Source: Myxococcales bacterium (GTDB lineage Bacteria; Myxococcota_A; UBA9160; SZUA-336). Taken from it: DNA of 64,000 nucleotides. Location of the stretch: assembly GCA_013215565.1 (NCBI GenBank), contig JABSQV010000023.1:1-64000 (forward strand), read 5' to 3'. The notes below the pieces were generated by a model, which did no database searches, had not been told where the DNA came from, and was given only the letters and a program-made list of their open reading frames with translations. Positions 39,286 to 50,250 of this stretch are shown here, in pieces; positions within the stretch are counted from its first letter, which is position 1; every line of letters begins with the position of its first letter. The translations under genes were made by a program, and so were the position numbers.

Positions 39286-40319
39286 AGGGCGGCGCTCCTG
39301 CCAACGCCACGCCGGAGCGGAACGAGTTCGAGGAACTTCGGAACTCGATTTCAGCGCTGCGAGAGGAACTCGAGACGCGTTTCGACCTGGGGAGTCGCGT
39401 TCCGCGCAACGCGGCGTCCCCTCCGCCCTCGGGTGCCGCTGCGCGCGACCGCGTTTCGGAGCTCGAAGGCCTGGGTCTGGACCCGATCGAGTTGTTCGAG
39501 CGTGCGCGCCGTTGGATGCCGCAGCGCTGGGGCGCGGCGCGTTCGGCCGAGGTGGACGAGTTCGGTCTGGACCCCGTCCACCTGGAGCGCGTGCGGCCGC
39601 TGCTCGATTTTCTCTTCGAACGCTGGTGGCGCGTCCAGGTCGCGGGCGCCGAGAACCTCGAGAGCGCGGACGGCGAGCGGCTGCTCTTCGTCTCGAACCG
39701 ATCGGGGATCCTCCCGTACGACGGCCTGATGATCGCGCACGCCGTCGAGCGGCATCATCCCGGGCGGCGGCCGCGCTTTCTGGTGGCGGACTGGCTCGCG
39801 ACGCTGCCGTTCCTGCAACCGGGTCTCGCCCGGATCGGCGGAATTCGTGCGTGTACCGAGAACGCCGAGCGCCTACTTCTGCGGGGCGAAGCGGTGGTCG
39901 CGTTTCCGGAAGGCCGGAAGGGGGCGCTCAAACTCTACCGGGACCGTTACCGTCTCCAGCGCTTCGGGCGTGGAGGCTTCGTCTCGCTGGCCGTGCGTTC
40001 GCGCGCGAAGGTCATCCCGGTGGCCGTCGTCGGCGCCGAGGAGGCGCACCCGATGCTGCTGCGGCTGGACCTGGCGACGCGCCTGCTCGGCGTCCCGTTC
40101 CCGGTGACGCCGACCTTCCCGCACCTGGGTCCGCTGGGACTCGTGCCGCTTCCGGCCCGCTGGCGGATCCGCTTTGGCGAGCCCGTGCACTTCGACCGGG
40201 TGGAGTCCCAGCGTGCCGACGATCCCCTGTACGTGAGCCGCGCGCGCGAGCAGATCCGGGGCAAGATCCAATCGCTGCTCGACGCGGAGGTGTACGCGCG
40301 AGGATCCGTCTGGCGCTAG
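39282..40319 (+). CDS. Lysophospholipid acyltransferase family protein (PlsC-like)
   Basis: A 345-residue protein. The first 100 residues are charged and possibly coiled; the acyltransferase domain starts near residue 110. The acceptor motif reads FVSNRSGILPYDG: relatives have NHSGxLPxD, so the catalytic His is Arg here. The phosphate-binding motif VVAFPEGRKGALK is intact, as are IPVAVVGAEEAHP and FGEPVHFD. It could be an atypical branch or an inactive homologue. ATGA overlap with the epimerase gene; the end overlaps the convergent PhaR gene by four bases. Confidence 0.82.
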   Translation: MKGGAPANATPERNEFEELRNSISALREELETRFDLGSRVPRNAASPPPSGAAARDRVSELEGLGLDPIELFERARRWMPQRWGAARSAEVDEFGLDPVHLERVRPLLDFLFERWWRVQVAGAENLESADGERLLFVSNRSGILPYDGLMIAHAVERHHPGRRPRFLVADWLATLPFLQPGLARIGGIRACTENAERLLLRGEAVVAFPEGRKGALKLYRDRYRLQRFGRGGFVSLAVRSRAKVIPVAVVGAEEAHPMLLRLDLATRLLGVPFPVTPTFPHLGPLGLVPLPARWRIRFGEPVHFDRVESQRADDPLYVSRAREQIRGKIQSLLDAEVYARGSVWR

Positions 40320-40867
40320 GAGGGTCCCTTGGGTTCGCCGAGCTGACGCTCGAAGCTCTCGAGGGCGGCCGAAAGGCGTGTGAGGTTCTGGTTCAGTGCT
40401 TCGAGGTCCGAGCGCGTCGGCAGATCGACGAGTTCGACCACGCGCTCGACCGCGTCGTGGACCACCTGGGTCAGATCCGAGGAATCCGGCGGATAGCTCG
40501 AGTTCTGCTTCGCCGAATCGGAGGGCCGGATCCAACGCCGGACGTTGCTGCGCAGATCGTCGAAGTTCCCCTGCGCATCGTCGACGGAACGCCGCAGGAT
40601 TTCGTAGATCGCATCGCCGCCCCGATGAACGAGTTCCGAGAGGACATGTCCGGGGAGTGGTTGAGAACTGTCGCGGTTCTGCTTCTGGTCATCGACGAGG
40701 ATCTGCGAAAGCGCAATCGAGGTGATGTCGTCGCCCGATTCGTTGTCGATGACGCGGATCTCATTGCCTTGCTCGAGCAGCGCGGAGATTCCCTTGAGCG
40801 TGATGTACCGGCTCGACTCCGTGTTGTAGAGCTTCCGGTTGGCGTAGCGCTTGATCAGAATCGCCAT
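40316..40867 (-). CDS. phaR: PhaR-type polyhydroxyalkanoate accumulation regulator
   Basis: A 183-residue protein. The first 60 residues match the PHB/PHA accumulation regulator DNA-binding domain: IKRYANRKLYNTESSRYITL, then VIDNESGDDIT and LSQILVDDQ. The C-terminal half is helical and charged and would carry the granule or oligomer contact. PhaR represses phasin genes and is released by binding PHA. No PHA synthase or phasin gene is in the window. It is the last gene of a minus-strand group with two ArsA-type ATPases. Confidence 0.9.
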   Translation of the reverse strand: MAILIKRYANRKLYNTESSRYITLKGISALLEQGNEIRVIDNESGDDITSIALSQILVDDQKQNRDSSQPLPGHVLSELVHRGGDAIYEILRRSVDDAQGNFDDLRSNVRRWIRPSDSAKQNSSYPPDSSDLTQVVHDAVERVVELVDLPTRSDLEALNQNLTRLSAALESFERQLGEPKGPS

Positions 40868-40900: not shown

Positions 40901-41206
40901 CTACGCGCGCCTCGGTCCGGCACGGCGCTTCGGATCGCGGGCCTCGCTCGGGCCCCCGGCCCGGGAGGGCCGCGGGCGCGGGTCAGGGTGTGGTTCGATC
41001 ACGTCGAGCAACGCCTGAAAGAGATCACGGACCCGGCGCGCGGCCGAGTCCGAATCTGCCCTGAGGTCCCAGCGCTTGATCTCGCTGCGGATGCTGCGGC
41101 GCAGTTCGTCGAGGCCCGGCAGCTCCACGATCAACTCCGAGACTCCGGACGCGAGTTCGTCCAGCCCGCGCAGAATCCGGATCCAGGGCGACCCGGTCCT
41201 ACTCAC
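40901..41206 (-). CDS. Small helical protein of unknown function between arsA-type and phaR genes
   Basis: A 101-residue frame starting with GTG and overlapping the upstream ATPase stop by eight bases. Residues 1-70 are predicted helical with regular Leu spacing (LDELASGVSELIVELPGLDE); the end is Pro/Arg-rich. Codon use is GC-rich at third positions like neighbours, which supports coding. I do not recognise a family. Position between an ATPase pair and a PhaR-like regulator suggests a granule-associated or partner role; this is inference. Confidence 0.55.
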   Translation of the reverse strand: MSRTGSPWIRILRGLDELASGVSELIVELPGLDELRRSIRSEIKRWDLRADSDSAARRVRDLFQALLDVIEPHPDPRPRPSRAGGPSEARDPKRRAGPRRA

Positions 41207-42404
41207 ACGGCGCCTCCGCCGGCCGACCCGGGTCTGTGCAGCCGAAGAGCTTGCGCCCGAGGCCGGCGAGCGCCTCGAGCGAATGCGGGTCTTGGGCTTC
41301 GAGCGGAATCCGGCGGATCTCCTCGATCGGGACTTGCACGTCGCGCGCGAACGCTGCGACCGCGCGCTCGTCGCGCCGCGCGAGCTGCGCCTGGCGGCGC
41401 GCCGCCTGGATCAGGATGCGCGCGCATTCCTTGGGGTTCGAGAACCCGGGCTCCGCGTCCAGGGCCGCGGCGAGCCGGGCTTCGTCCGTCTCCCAGCGCG
41501 GATCATCCGCCTGCGGGCAGGGCTCGGGTCCCGGCCAGCTGCGAATCCGGTTCACCACGATGCCCGCGAGGTCGATCCGCTCCTCCGCCAACCTCTCGCG
41601 GAGCCGGGCGGCGTCCGCCGACTGGCCGGGCCCGGTCCCGGCCACCAGCACGACCCCGCAGGCCGGGCTCGAGAGGAGCCGCTGCACCTCGTGTGCGCGG
41701 GTGGCGAACCCGTCCACCAGACCCTCGAATGCAACCAGGAACTCGGCAATCGCCCGGGGCAGCTCGAGCCCCGAGAACCGCTCGAGCGCGCGCAGCACGC
41801 GGTCGGACCCGAGCCGGAACCAGCGCCGGCCGGTTCGTCCCACCGCGAGGGTGGGAAGTACGAGCAGGCGCGCGACGGGACTCTCCAGGAAGCCGATCAG
41901 GCGGCGCGGAGCGTCCAGAAAATCGAGCGCGTGCCGTGCTGGAGGGGTGTCGAGCACGAGCAGATCGTACTCGGCCTTGCCGTGGAGCCGCAGGACCTCC
42001 TCCGTGGCGGCGTATTCGCGGCTTCCGGCAAGCGCGTCGGTGAGCGTCTGGTAGATCGCGTTCTCGAAAATCCGATCGCGGGAATCGCGGTCGGGCGCGA
42101 AGCGTTCGACCAGCGCATCGAAGGTGCGCTTCGTGTCGAGCATCATGGCGTGGAGCGTGCCTCGCGCGCGGCCTCCCAGGGCCCGTGCGATTCGTTCCGG
42201 GGGAATTTCCCGCGGGACGCTTCCGAGGCGGCCGACCCCGAAGGCGTCGGCGAGCCGGCGTGCGGGATCGATGGTCACCACCAGCACACGCCTGCCGCGC
42301 AGAGCGGCTTCCAGTCCGATGGCGGCGGCCAACGTCGTCTTGCCTACGCCTCCGGTGCCGGCGCAGACCAGGATCTGCCGCTCGAGCCAGTCCACGGGCT
42401 TCAC
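41199..42404 (-). CDS. ArsA/GET3-type ATPase (second of a tandem pair)
   Basis: A 401-residue ATPase with the deviant Walker A VCAGTGGVGKTTLAAAIGLE near the N-terminus, VVTIDPARRLADAFG (switch I Asp) and LLVLDTPPARHALDFLDAP (Walker B region). No arsenic resistance genes are near. Actinobacteria carry a similar two-gene pair (mycobacterial Rv3679/Rv3680, BagA/BagB) of uncertain function. It overlaps its partner upstream by four bases, so the two probably form a heterodimer. Confidence 0.88.
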   Translation of the reverse strand: MKPVDWLERQILVCAGTGGVGKTTLAAAIGLEAALRGRRVLVVTIDPARRLADAFGVGRLGSVPREIPPERIARALGGRARGTLHAMMLDTKRTFDALVERFAPDRDSRDRIFENAIYQTLTDALAGSREYAATEEVLRLHGKAEYDLLVLDTPPARHALDFLDAPRRLIGFLESPVARLLVLPTLAVGRTGRRWFRLGSDRVLRALERFSGLELPRAIAEFLVAFEGLVDGFATRAHEVQRLLSSPACGVVLVAGTGPGQSADAARLRERLAEERIDLAGIVVNRIRSWPGPEPCPQADDPRWETDEARLAAALDAEPGFSNPKECARILIQAARRQAQLARRDERAVAAFARDVQVPIEEIRRIPLEAQDPHSLEALAGLGRKLFGCTDPGRPAEAPCE

Positions 42405-43378
42405 GGCTGTGACTCCCGCCGGGCAAACGCCTTCTCGACCTGGCGCGCCAATTCCGCGACCTCGGTGCAGGTCTCGACCCCGTGCTCCAGGTACGGGATC
42501 TCGATGACGGGTGCGAGTTCCAGGCTCTCGAGTTCGGACAGGTAGCTGCGTTGCTCAGCGGCCCGCTGCACTGCGTGCTGCCGGCAGGTTCGAAGCGAGG
42601 CGGGGCTGACGAGATCGAGCGACGCGCTCGCCAGTTGCGCGGGGGTCGGGTCGGCGGGCGCGTCCGGCGCGGCCTCAACCGCGTTCGCCAGAATCGGGCC
42701 GTACGCGAGGTCGAGTTCGCCGAGTTCCCGGCAGAGCAGGGCGGTCTCTCGCACCGCGAGCTCTTCCGCAAGCGTGACCGGGACGACCCGGGTGCGGACG
42801 GGATCCGTGAGCAATGCCTGGACCCGGTCGGTGTGAAGCCGCAGCGGACCCCTTCGCACCGTGTCGATCACGACACCGGGCGTGGCGAGCAGGGCCAGTC
42901 CATGGCCGGTGGAAGGCGCGTCGACGATCAGCAACTCGGGCCCGGACCCGGCGCCCCGGCGCCCGGCGCGCTCCAGGTGCCAGAGCTTTCCGAGGGTGAT
43001 GAGTTCGCGCCAGCCGGGCGCAGCCTCGAGCAACTGGCGGATCCCGGCACGGTCGACGAGGGAACGGGCCAGGGACGGCAGCCGCAGCTGGAGCTCGAGG
43101 TATTCGATCAGCGCGGTCCGCGGGTCGATCGAGAGCGTCGAGAGGCCCGGCGCGAGGCGCAGCGGCTGCCGCCCGTCCTGGACCGGGAGCTTTGCGGGTT
43201 CCGGGGCCAGGAGCCCGGGGAGGCGCTGCTCGCCCGAGACCTCCACCACGACGCATTCGCGGCCGAGCCCGGCCGCAAGCATGCCCAGCGCCGCCACCAG
43301 CGTCGTCTTCCCGGTCCCTCCCTTTCCCGAGACGATCAGCAGTCGGTGCCCGAACAGATCGCGAAGTCCCTGGGTCAC
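42401..43378 (-). CDS. ArsA/GET3-type ATPase (first of a tandem pair)
   Basis: A 325-residue ATPase. Walker A is LIVSGKGGTGKTTLVAALG; the segment LLIVDAPSTGHGLALLATP corresponds to the Walker B/switch II region. Shorter and more divergent than its partner, as in other such pairs. GTG start. It is divergent from the MJ0042 gene with a 74-base spacer. Role not known; coupling to PHA granules or to a membrane target is possible from the PhaR gene downstream. Confidence 0.85.
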   Translation of the reverse strand: MTQGLRDLFGHRLLIVSGKGGTGKTTLVAALGMLAAGLGRECVVVEVSGEQRLPGLLAPEPAKLPVQDGRQPLRLAPGLSTLSIDPRTALIEYLELQLRLPSLARSLVDRAGIRQLLEAAPGWRELITLGKLWHLERAGRRGAGSGPELLIVDAPSTGHGLALLATPGVVIDTVRRGPLRLHTDRVQALLTDPVRTRVVPVTLAEELAVRETALLCRELGELDLAYGPILANAVEAAPDAPADPTPAQLASASLDLVSPASLRTCRQHAVQRAAEQRSYLSELESLELAPVIEIPYLEHGVETCTEVAELARQVEKAFARRESQP

Positions 43379-46564: not shown

Positions 46565-47329
46565 TCAGGAGGCTCTGGGCGAGGGTCCACTCGGCGTCTC
46601 TGAGTTCGCGATCAGACCCCCGATCAGCCGCTCGAGGCTCCGGGCCGACGCGGCAGTCGGATCGAGCTGCGTCAACGGAACCCCCTGCAGCAGCGAACGG
46701 AAGCTCGCGCGGTCGCGCTCGAGGCTCCCGGCAAGCTCCAGCTCGAGCCCGAACTCGCTGCTTGCCGCGGCGGCCAGGCGCGCGAAGAGCGAGCGAGCCC
46801 TCCCGGGGTCGGCGGCCGACAGCACCACGCCGACCAGCCTGAGCGACCGGGCCGCCTGCGTGAGCTCGCGCAGTGACGCGTGCGCTTCGGCGAGTCCCCA
46901 CTCCGCGCCCTCGATCGGAAGCAACAGCGCGTCCATCCCGGCGATCCCATCGTGCCGCAGCTGCTCGATCCACGACGCGATCTGGGCCGCGCTCTCGATC
47001 GCAACGAGTGAGCAGCCGGCCGGAGCCTCCCTCAGCGCCCGATAGAGTTCCTGCGGTCCGGCGCCGGAATGCCACACGACAGCGGCGGCGGGCTCGAAGC
47101 AGGCCGCGAAGGGAGCGACCACGTGGACCTGGCGGCCGAAGCCCGCGAGGGCCGTAGCCAGATCGCGCGCGAGGGCTCCCGAGAGCGGCCGCTCGGGGTT
47201 TGCCGCGACAAACCAGCGAACCGCAGGCCCGGCGGATTTCGAGCGCGCGGAGCGCTCACGGATCTCGCGCTGCTCCTCTTTGGAGATGAAGAAGTGAAAG
47301 ACCTCGTCGAGAGACCTGCGGCGTGCCAA
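46565..47329 (-). CDS. ParA/MinD-like protein without a P-loop
   Basis: A 254-residue protein following the ParA gene with a 37-base gap. After a charged start (SLDEVFHFFISKEEQREI) comes a ParA/MinD-like first strand and helix: WFVAANPERPLSGALARDL and ATALAGFGRQVHVVAPF. The position of the GKGGxGKT loop holds NPERPLSGAL, so ATP cannot be bound in the usual way. Later strands (GMDALLLPIEGAEWGL, LVGVVLSAADPG) also look ParA-like. I infer an inactive partner of the adjacent ParA. Start TTG at 47329. No named family recognised. Confidence 0.65.
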   Translation of the reverse strand: MARRRSLDEVFHFFISKEEQREIRERSARSKSAGPAVRWFVAANPERPLSGALARDLATALAGFGRQVHVVAPFAACFEPAAAVVWHSGAGPQELYRALREAPAGCSLVAIESAAQIASWIEQLRHDGIAGMDALLLPIEGAEWGLAEAHASLRELTQAARSLRLVGVVLSAADPGRARSLFARLAAAASSEFGLELELAGSLERDRASFRSLLQGVPLTQLDPTAASARSLERLIGGLIANSETPSGPSPRAS

Positions 47330-47366
47330 CCGCTCTCCGATCCGGCACCGCCCCGAAGCGCGGCGC

Positions 47367-48461
47367 TCAGCTGATGATCAACACGGAGTTTACACCGCCG
47401 GCGGGCCCCTCGACTCTTCTCGGATTGCTCGGATCGGGCTTCCACTCTCCGTCCACGAAGTAGCGGTACTGGTAGACGCCGGGTCCGAGCTGGATCACCT
47501 TTTCCCAGGTGCCGTCCGGTGCCTGGCGGGAATCGACGTTCTTGTCGGGTACCCAGCCGTTGAAATCGCCCGCGAGTTGGACGCTGCGCGCGACGGGGCT
47601 CCGGTAGGTCAGCACGACTCCCTTCTCGCCGCCGGACACGCTCTCTTCCAGTTCGAACTCGGGTGCGACTTCCTTTTCTTCGTCCAGCGCCTGGTTGTCG
47701 AAGAGGAGTTCCAGCGCGAGCGACATGTAGTCGACGAAGCCGTAGGCGCGCCGGTCGAGCTTCGAGATGGGCTGACCACGCTGGGCGGCTTCGCGCAGCC
47801 GAACGTTCTGACGGATGACGGTGTCGAAGACGAGGTCCTTGTAAGTTTCCCGGATCTCGATCAGGGCGCGCTTTGCGAAGCGCGTCCGGCCGTCGAACAG
47901 CGTTGGAAGCAGCCGGATCCGCAGTTCGTGACCGATTCGGTCCTCGAGCAGCCCGACGGTTTCGAGCAGCCTCGAGACCCCCTGCATGGCGAAGTAGCTG
48001 GTCTCGAGCGGCACGATGACCTCGGTTGCGGCCCGGAGTGCGTTGAAGGTCAGGATGCCCACGTTCGGAGGGCAGTCGATCAAGACGAAGTCGTAGGGTT
48101 TCGAGAGGGATTTGAGGGCGATTCCGAGGCGCTCGGTTCGGCCGGTCGCCCCCTCAGATGCGAGCTTTTGCTCGAGCGCCGACAGGATCACGCCCGACGG
48201 GGCCACGTCGAGGCAATCGCCCGCCGGGACCGTCACCTCGTCGAGGCTGGCCGCGTGCGGTGGCGGATCCGCCAGGACCTCGTACAGGTTTTCGTCCAGC
48301 GCTTCCGGATCGATGCCGAGCCCGATCGTGGCGTGGGCCTGCGGATCCATGTCGACCACGAGGACGCGGTGATTTTCCTCGGCGAGGCAGCCGGCCAGGT
48401 TCACGACCGAGGTCGTCTTCCCGCAGCCGCCCTTCTGGTTGACGACCGCGATCGTCCTCAT
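47367..48461 (-). CDS. ParA-family ATPase with C-terminal glycogen-binding-type (AMPK1_CBM/CBM48) domain
   Basis: A 364-residue protein. Residues 1-265 are a ParA/Soj ATPase: Walker A VVNQKGGCGKTTSVVNLAG, VLVVDMDPQAHATIGLG, FVLIDCPPNVGILTFNAL. After an acidic linker (about 270-285), residues 285-364 match the carbohydrate-binding module of AMPK beta and isoamylase early-set domains: VQLAGDFNGWVPDKN, then GTWEKVIQLGPGVYQYRYFV and VDGEWKPDPSNP. That module binds glycogen or starch in known proteins. No parB gene is near. This domain pair is unusual. ATG at 48461. Confidence 0.88.
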   Translation of the reverse strand: MRTIAVVNQKGGCGKTTSVVNLAGCLAEENHRVLVVDMDPQAHATIGLGIDPEALDENLYEVLADPPPHAASLDEVTVPAGDCLDVAPSGVILSALEQKLASEGATGRTERLGIALKSLSKPYDFVLIDCPPNVGILTFNALRAATEVIVPLETSYFAMQGVSRLLETVGLLEDRIGHELRIRLLPTLFDGRTRFAKRALIEIRETYKDLVFDTVIRQNVRLREAAQRGQPISKLDRRAYGFVDYMSLALELLFDNQALDEEKEVAPEFELEESVSGGEKGVVLTYRSPVARSVQLAGDFNGWVPDKNVDSRQAPDGTWEKVIQLGPGVYQYRYFVDGEWKPDPSNPRRVEGPAGGVNSVLIIS

Positions 48462-48738: not shown

Positions 48739-49038
48739 ATGGCAGGAAGCACCCGGCAGCCGTGGGCATCTGGCGGGTTTGCACTGATCGATGCGGGTCG
48801 TCACAGGCTGCGGTCGCGGCTGCGGGCGGAGACGGGCGAGCTGGCGCGGGCTGCGATCGCGCGGCTTTCGAGGGAGGCGCGCTGCCGCGTCCCGGGGCTC
48901 GAGCTGGGCCGGGCCGAGATGATCCTGGCTGGCTTGTGTGTCCTCGAACGGCTGCTCGAGGTCGCGGATGTCCGCGAGTTCCGCGTGAGCGGCCGCGGCG
49001 TTCGCTCCGGTGCGGCGCTTCGGCTTCTCGATGCATAG
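48739..49038 (+). pseudogene. C-terminal remnant of an exopolyphosphatase (Ppx/GppA family)
   Basis: A 99-codon frame whose last 60 residues carry the closing signature of Ppx/GppA proteins: VPGLELGRAEMILAGLCVLE, then FRVSGRGVRSGAALRLL. Full proteins are 300-500 residues with two actin-like domains; none of that is seen upstream in any frame. The ATG at 48739 has no ribosome site. It is most likely a decayed gene end, though a short expressed protein cannot be ruled out. The identification is by motif recall only. Confidence 0.5.
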
Positions 49039-49056: not shown

Positions 49057-49065
49057 GTGGGGTTC

Positions 49066-50250
49066 GTGGCAGAAGAAACTCTCTCGGTCGTTACCGCCGA
49101 GGGTCCGCGGCCCTTCATGCGCGGCATCCTCGTGCAGTCGCTCGTTTCGCGCGGCGTTCCCTTCGATGTCGCGTTCGCGACAGCGACACAGATACGTGAC
49201 CGTCTGGAACCCGAAAAGCAGGTCGGGACCGCCGAAATCGCGAGGCTCATCGACGCCCTGCTCTCCGACCGCTACGACCTCGAGCGCCCGCCCGTCCAGT
49301 TCGGAGTCGAGCCGCCTCGGGTTCGGGAGACGGACCGTTCCTCGAGTCCTTTCTCCAAGGGGATCCTGGCGGTGTCGCTCCAGGGCGCCGGCCTCGAGGT
49401 CAGCGAGGCCTACGACGTGGCGCGGGAACTCGAGGCGCACTTGCTTCAGGAGGGCCGCAAGGAAATCGATCGCAACGTCCTGCGCGACCTCGCGTTCGAA
49501 ACCATCGAGCGTGCCCACGGATCGGCAGCCGGGGAGCGTTACCGTGTCTGGCGGCGCGCGCTTGCCGATGCCCGGCCGATCTTCATTCTGCTCGGCGGAT
49601 CGACCGGTGTGGGCAAGACCTCGATCGCGGTGGAAGTGGCGCGGCGGCTCGAGATCTCGCGCGTGATCGGCACCGATTCGATCCGCCAGATTATGCGGCT
49701 CATGTTCTCCTCGGATCTCATGCCCGAGATTCACGGGTCGACCTTCGATACTTACCGGCGGTCGCAGTTCGAGCCGGATCCGCTGGTGGGGCGCCCGTCG
49801 CCCGGACGCTACGACGCGATTGCGGGCTTCCGCGAGCAGGCTCAGAAGATCGCGGTGGGAGTTCGGGCGTTGCTGGAGCGAGGCCTCGAGGAAAACACCA
49901 GCATGATCGTGGAGGGTGTGAACCTGCTCCCGAGTCAGTTGGACCTGCGGGACTTCGAGGACCGGGCGCACGTGACTTTTCTGGTGATTGCAACGGTGGA
50001 TGCGGACACGCTTACGCAGCGCTTTGCCACGCGGGCTGCGAAGGCGCGGGGGCGTCAGTCCGAGCGTTACCTGCAGAGCCTCGACCAGATCCGGGCCATC
50101 CAGAGTCACATCCTGTCCGAGGCGGATCACCACGGCCTCCAGATCATCGACAACAAGCAATTCGACGATGCCGTCTGCTCGGTGATCCGCTCGGTCATTG
50201 CCAAGCTCAAGGAGTCGGTGGGCTCCCCAGGCGAGGGGGCGCGTTCGTGA
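49066..50250 (+). CDS. 2-phosphoglycerate kinase-like protein with two ATP-cone-like domains
   Basis: A 394-residue protein. The kinase domain begins near residue 170 with the P-loop FILLGGSTGVGKTSIAVEVA, followed by VIGTDSIRQIMRLMF and IVEGVNLLPSQLDL, as in archaeal 2-phosphoglycerate kinases (first step to cyclic 2,3-diphosphoglycerate). Before it lie two related segments, RPFMRGILVQSLVSRGV and SPFSKGILAVSLQGAGLEV, each starting an ATP-cone-like helical domain. Family members usually have one. The GTG at 49066 is preferred over 49057. No cDPG synthetase gene is nearby. Confidence 0.8.
   Translation: MAEETLSVVTAEGPRPFMRGILVQSLVSRGVPFDVAFATATQIRDRLEPEKQVGTAEIARLIDALLSDRYDLERPPVQFGVEPPRVRETDRSSSPFSKGILAVSLQGAGLEVSEAYDVARELEAHLLQEGRKEIDRNVLRDLAFETIERAHGSAAGERYRVWRRALADARPIFILLGGSTGVGKTSIAVEVARRLEISRVIGTDSIRQIMRLMFSSDLMPEIHGSTFDTYRRSQFEPDPLVGRPSPGRYDAIAGFREQAQKIAVGVRALLERGLEENTSMIVEGVNLLPSQLDLRDFEDRAHVTFLVIATVDADTLTQRFATRAAKARGRQSERYLQSLDQIRAIQSHILSEADHHGLQIIDNKQFDDAVCSVIRSVIAKLKESVGSPGEGARS

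Follow-up and report, generated by a model that had tools for sequence, protein, structure and literature searches.

A ParA ATPase fused to a CBM48-type domain and paired with an FlhG-like pseudo-ATPase: candidate core of a positioning module in Myxococcota and other phyla

In a 64,000-nucleotide stretch of a Myxococcales bacterium genome (contig JABSQV010000023.1, hereafter the window), we found a gene pair encoding a ParA ATPase fused to a carbohydrate-binding-type module (CBM) and, directly after it, an FlhG-like pseudo-ATPase. There is, in our judgement, about an even chance that this locus is central to a hitherto undescribed positioning module of the ParA/MinD type; its partner protein would be the FlhG-like pseudo-ATPase, and the CBM would take a ligand. 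Several ParA/MinD ATPases are found in more than one-third of bacterial genomes, and many of them are orphans whose cargo is not known (PMC10241942). The pair comprises the following features, all on the minus strand:

47367..48461, minus strand: ParA-CBM fusion, 364 aa, supported by the open reading frame, Pfam, and recurrence in 80/91 genomes of the class
47697..48461, minus strand: Soj-type ParA domain, residues 1–255, with the clade signature NQKGGCGKTT and DPQxH, and with R192 and R221
47379..47612, minus strand: AMPK1_CBM/CBM48 domain, residues 284–361, with W303, R333, and W340
46565..47329, minus strand: P-loop-less FlhG/FleN-type pseudo-ATPase (predicted), 254 aa, conserved neighbour
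47282..47311, minus strand: N-terminal motif LDEVFHFFIS, residues 7–16 of the second protein
47171..47200, minus strand: NPERPLSGAL, residues 44–53 of the second protein, at the place of the P-loop

The fusion gene starts at the ATG at 48461 and ends at 47367. Its N-terminal part matches AAA_31 in Pfam (residues 1–182, E 7e-50), and the solved structures closest to this part are those of ParA/Soj proteins (E 4e-49). Specifically, AAA_31 is combined with the deviant Walker A motif K-G-G-x-G-K-T and the signature lysine that mark the ParA family, and both motifs are unbroken in all 23 aligned fusions, in agreement with the intact ParA ATPase of the original prediction. Residues R192 and R221, which we take to be the counterparts of the nsDNA-binding arginines of B. 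subtilis Soj, are kept as R192 in 21/23 and as R/K221 in 20/23 aligned fusions. In ParA-type ATPases, nsDNA binding is mediated by surface arginines (PMC9178275). A tree that combines the fusions with other ParAs from their class places the canonical chromosomal ParAs in a separate group (100/100), and the fusions carry the signature KGGCGKTT (cysteine in 34/35) together with DPQxH (35/35). That the fusion arose only once does not follow from this tree alone, because the branch of the Margulisbacteria sequence is long and G035, a genome of the class, encodes the ParA of this clade with no CBM.

The C-terminal region had been proposed to resemble the AMPK-beta/CBM48 fold, and both profile and structure searches bear this out. 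Residues 284–361 match AMPK1_CBM with 41.1 bits (E 2e-10), above the curated Pfam cut-off of 26.8 bits, and the closest solved structures are the AMPK beta CBMs 4yef and 1z0n (E 6e-8). The sugar-contact residues of AMPK beta1 are W100, K126, W133, and L146 (PMC2642990). W303, R333, and W340 of the fusion sit at the positions of W100, K126, and W133, and are conserved in the aligned fusions as W303 in 23/23, R/K333 in 22/23, and W340 in 22/23, while the AMPK L146 position varies, so that three of the four contact positions are kept. On this sequence evidence, the C-terminal domain is a bona fide CBM48-type domain that retains the main sugar-contact residues. This conservation is not proof of sugar binding, because other bacterial proteins with this fold also carry such residues.

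The fusion is present in 80/91 genomes of the window's class within the Myxococcota and drops sharply outside the class, being much rarer across the rest of the phylum. A cross-phylum scan with one genome per species, which also found Myxococcota, recovered it from Zixibacteria, Omnitrophota, Auribacterota, Rokubacteria, Acidobacteria, Gammaproteobacteria, Nitrospirota, Planctomycetota, and Margulisbacteria. Recurrence in the class and across phyla rules out a chance fusion. In four Nitrospirota fusions (L162, L168, L170, and L180), ParA and CBM are joined by a long linker of low-complexity or acidic sequence, and the whole protein reaches 572–742 aa. When plasmids were searched with the full-length protein, most matches were ordinary ParAs aligned over the ParA part; among the matches listed, three (H1–H3) extend into the C-terminal region with 32–36% identity.

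The second gene starts with TTG at 47329, about 37 bases downstream of the ParA-CBM gene, and no family for its product was found in Pfam or NCBIfam. A profile of 26 members from Myxococcota, Gammaproteobacteria, Nitrospirota, and Omnitrophota matches FleN/FlhG over nearly the full length (E 1e-16 to 1e-17) and aligns the NPERPLSGAL region with GGKGGVGKT of FleN. The P-loop is absent throughout the aligned family, whose other members carry other P-loop-less sequence at this place. An AlphaFold model (pLDDT 85.6), for which the window's sequence was combined with those of 23 relatives, finds its best PDB matches in FlhG (4rz3) and FleN (8p53 and 5j1j), with TM 0.64–0.68 and E values down to 4e-10. 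The comparison with the fusion's own ParA by hhalign is weak (probability 24%). Since both profile and model match FlhG/FleN, the second protein is predicted to be a MinD/FlhG-type pseudo-ATPase rather than a copy of ParA. Of what had been claimed for this gene, the loss of the P-loop and its replacement by NPERPLSGAL thus stand, while the ParA-type fold gives way to a MinD/FlhG-type one. The N-terminal motif, with the family form L.DVLHYFLP in the class and L..ISHHFLS elsewhere, is among the most conserved parts, and its leucine is invariant (26/26). The net charge of the first 20 residues ranges from 0 to −4 in the window's class and from +2 to +4 in other phyla.

The two genes form a conserved pair. 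The pseudo-ATPase directly follows the fusion in 29/32 class loci by profile, or 30/32 with G006 added, and the pair recurs outside the class in at least five phyla (Gammaproteobacteria, Nitrospirota, Planctomycetota, Omnitrophota, and Auribacterota); this linkage across genomes lends weight to the earlier suggestion that the dead homologue is a partner. The class gene order is MerR-type regulator, ParA-CBM, pseudo-ATPase, PD-(D/E)xK-like protein, ECF sigma factor, and alpha/beta hydrolase; upstream of this series lies a divergent ATP-cone/kinase gene. Other phyla share only the first four genes of the series. No cognate MerR gene was found in the window's genome and no PD-(D/E)xK-like gene at the window's locus, which reduces the minimal unit to ParA-CBM and the pseudo-ATPase.

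Several neighbouring genes deserve description. The PD-(D/E)xK-like protein (L108:7398-7985) is a conserved downstream protein present in several phyla, for whose relatives Pfam holds no family; a model from a relative matches NucS/EndoMS-type nucleases weakly (E 1e-4), and on sequence reading the aligned family has no usual E-x-K. Its C-terminus carries the conserved motif FRTGLT..DL....E...F. In Planctomycetota, a similar nuclease-like domain appears from its sequence to be fused to the pseudo-ATPase, with profile support in locus L146 only (E 4e-4). Within the window, the divergent gene at 49057–50250 (plus strand) encodes an ATP-cone-like region and a P-loop kinase domain, and adjoins the fusion in most class genomes. 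Between them, the 99-aa open frame at 48739–49038 (plus strand) matches no more of a Ppx/GppA-type gene than the C-terminal third; such a gene encodes 313–324 aa at the same position in related genomes of the same family, and the frame is likely a pseudogene remnant. Additionally, two tandem ArsA/Get3-like ATPase genes at 41199–43378 (minus strand) group by sequence with the pair in the relative L046.

No cargo gene is consistently linked to the fusion loci. Glycogen or another polysaccharide had been put forward as possible cargo, and for glycogen this part of the original prediction fails as a general statement, because most hosts lack glycogen synthase, branching enzyme, and glycogen phosphorylase and there is no association with these enzymes. 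GlgA occurs in 13/91 class genomes (12/80 with the fusion and 1/11 without it) and GlgB in 29/91 (25/80 and 4/11), with no association between GlgB and the fusion (Fisher p 0.74); class-wide, the presence of GlgA, GlgB, GH13, and GT35 likewise shows no association with the fusion. Among 48 near-complete fusion-bearing genomes, from a set hand-listed at about 90% completeness in which some members exceed 5% contamination, 34 have no GlgA, GlgB, or GT35, and 23 have no GH13 either. The window's genome encodes no GlgA, GlgB, or glycogen phosphorylase (GT35) and one GH13 gene, while glycogen genes are present in G011, a near-complete genome that lacks the fusion. Glycogen was therefore rejected as general cargo, and the positioning of glycogen or alpha-glucan granules seems to us highly improbable, despite the AMPK-type CBM with its conserved contact residues and the minority of fusion-bearing genomes that do have glycogen genes. 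The same lack of association with alpha-glucan enzymes, including the 23 genomes with none of the four, favours a different explanation, namely that the CBM-like domain binds no sugar and serves as a protein-docking or oligomerisation module in a similar positioning system. The AMPK beta CBM also touches the kinase domain, and the natural loss of the CBM in G035 fits this as well. However, two aromatic and one basic sugar-contact residues are near-invariant over distant phyla, which is beyond what docking needs, and we consider this explanation rather unlikely, while giving it serious weight. PHA granules made by PhaC_N-type synthases, the only type searched, were also rejected as general cargo, since PhaC_N occurs in 2/91 class genomes and is absent from the window's genome. 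The window does contain, at 40316–40867 (minus strand), a gene for a PHB/PHA accumulation regulator (PHB_acc_N), although its genome has no PhaC_N-type synthase.

Two further explanations start from the relatives of the proteins. No parB adjoins the fusion, just as had been noted at the outset; the window's genome nonetheless has a canonical parAB on another contig, and on these two grounds chromosome segregation was rejected. DNA partition could still operate if the upstream MerR-type protein took the place of ParB: many class loci, as well as Gammaproteobacteria and Nitrospirota, have a MerR-type gene upstream of the fusion, and MerR-fold proteins are able to anchor DNA. Yet the window's genome keeps the ParA pair with no cognate MerR, the chromosome already has its own parAB, and the region upstream of the fusion contains no ParB-like centromere repeats or iteron-like array, only short repeats at chance level, all of which makes such a partition system quite improbable. 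The FlhG/FleN fold of the second protein, in turn, would suit a flagellar or transcriptional regulator of that kind. FliF, however, occurs in 28/91 class genomes and not in that of the window, flagellar genes were not seen nearby, and the second protein has lost its P-loop, so we hold out very little prospect for this explanation. Flagella as general cargo were rejected on the same FliF count.

Comparison with known systems helps to place the pair. The fusion resembles the ParA/Soj segregation ATPases (8ray, 1wcv, and 6iub) in its full ParA domain, Walker A, signature lysine, and nsDNA arginines, but it has no parB or parS-type partner, carries KGGCGKTT/DPQxH and a C-terminal CBM, and stands apart in the tree. 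McdAB, PpfA-TlpT, and ParC-ParP likewise set an orphan ParA-type ATPase beside a dedicated partner gene (PMC10241942, PMC9178275), whereas here the partner is an FlhG-type pseudo-ATPase and the ATPase itself carries the carbohydrate-binding-type domain. The second protein shares the fold of FlhG/FleN and a full-length profile match with them, but differs in its missing P-loop and its extra conserved N-terminal motif, and most hosts have no flagella. The fusion and the AMPK beta-subunit CBM48 have the domain in common, together with one basic and two Trp sugar-contact positions; in the fusion, by contrast, the domain is attached to a ParA, the host bacteria mostly lack glycogen, and the L146 position is not kept. 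BcsQ, a MinD-like protein of cellulose synthesis, is also an A/D ATPase tied to a polysaccharide and has weak Pfam overlap with the fusion, but it has no CBM, and cellulose-synthesis genes were not seen near the fusion. The module would thus work along the lines of orphan ParA/MinD positioning systems, while both its architecture and its type of partner are new. We found no published description of the pair in a literature search whose coverage excluded most subscription journals and preprints, in keeping with the earlier view that the system is undescribed; the fusion may well be listed already in domain-architecture databases.

Together, the intact ParA, the conserved pair, and the separate parAB back a positioning system, as originally predicted, of the orphan ParA/MinD type. 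In such a module, the ParA domain, like other ParAs, would bind ATP and, to judge from the arginine equivalents, the nucleoid. The pseudo-ATPase would have lost ATP hydrolysis and may serve as dedicated partner or scaffold of ParA-CBM through its conserved N-terminal motif, a role suggested by linkage, fold, and the motif itself. Partners of ParA/MinD ATPases commonly use their N-terminus to act on the ATPase (PMC10241942); against this role, the N-terminus in the class is not net basic, unlike usual activating peptides. The CBM, given its conserved sugar-contact residues, would hold or sense a ligand and in this way tie the ATPase to its cargo or signal; the ligand is probably a glycan or some component that is glycosylated. 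The CBM-less G035 and the unconserved L146 position count against such a role of the CBM. Somewhat more tentatively, the module may represent a novel and widely distributed kind of bacterial positioning system, whose motor ATPase would bind a glycan or glycoconjugate directly by means of its CBM48 domain and would work with an FlhG-type pseudo-ATPase, often also with a MerR-type regulator and a PD-(D/E)xK-fold protein. The fusion offers a handle on its own cargo, namely a CBM with conserved contact residues, the conserved pseudo-ATPase partner brings a testable motif, and the sequence signature makes the module findable across phyla. To our knowledge, no ParA has previously been known to contact carbohydrate directly; if the CBM does bind a glycan, the fusion would provide such a direct contact between a ParA and a carbohydrate.
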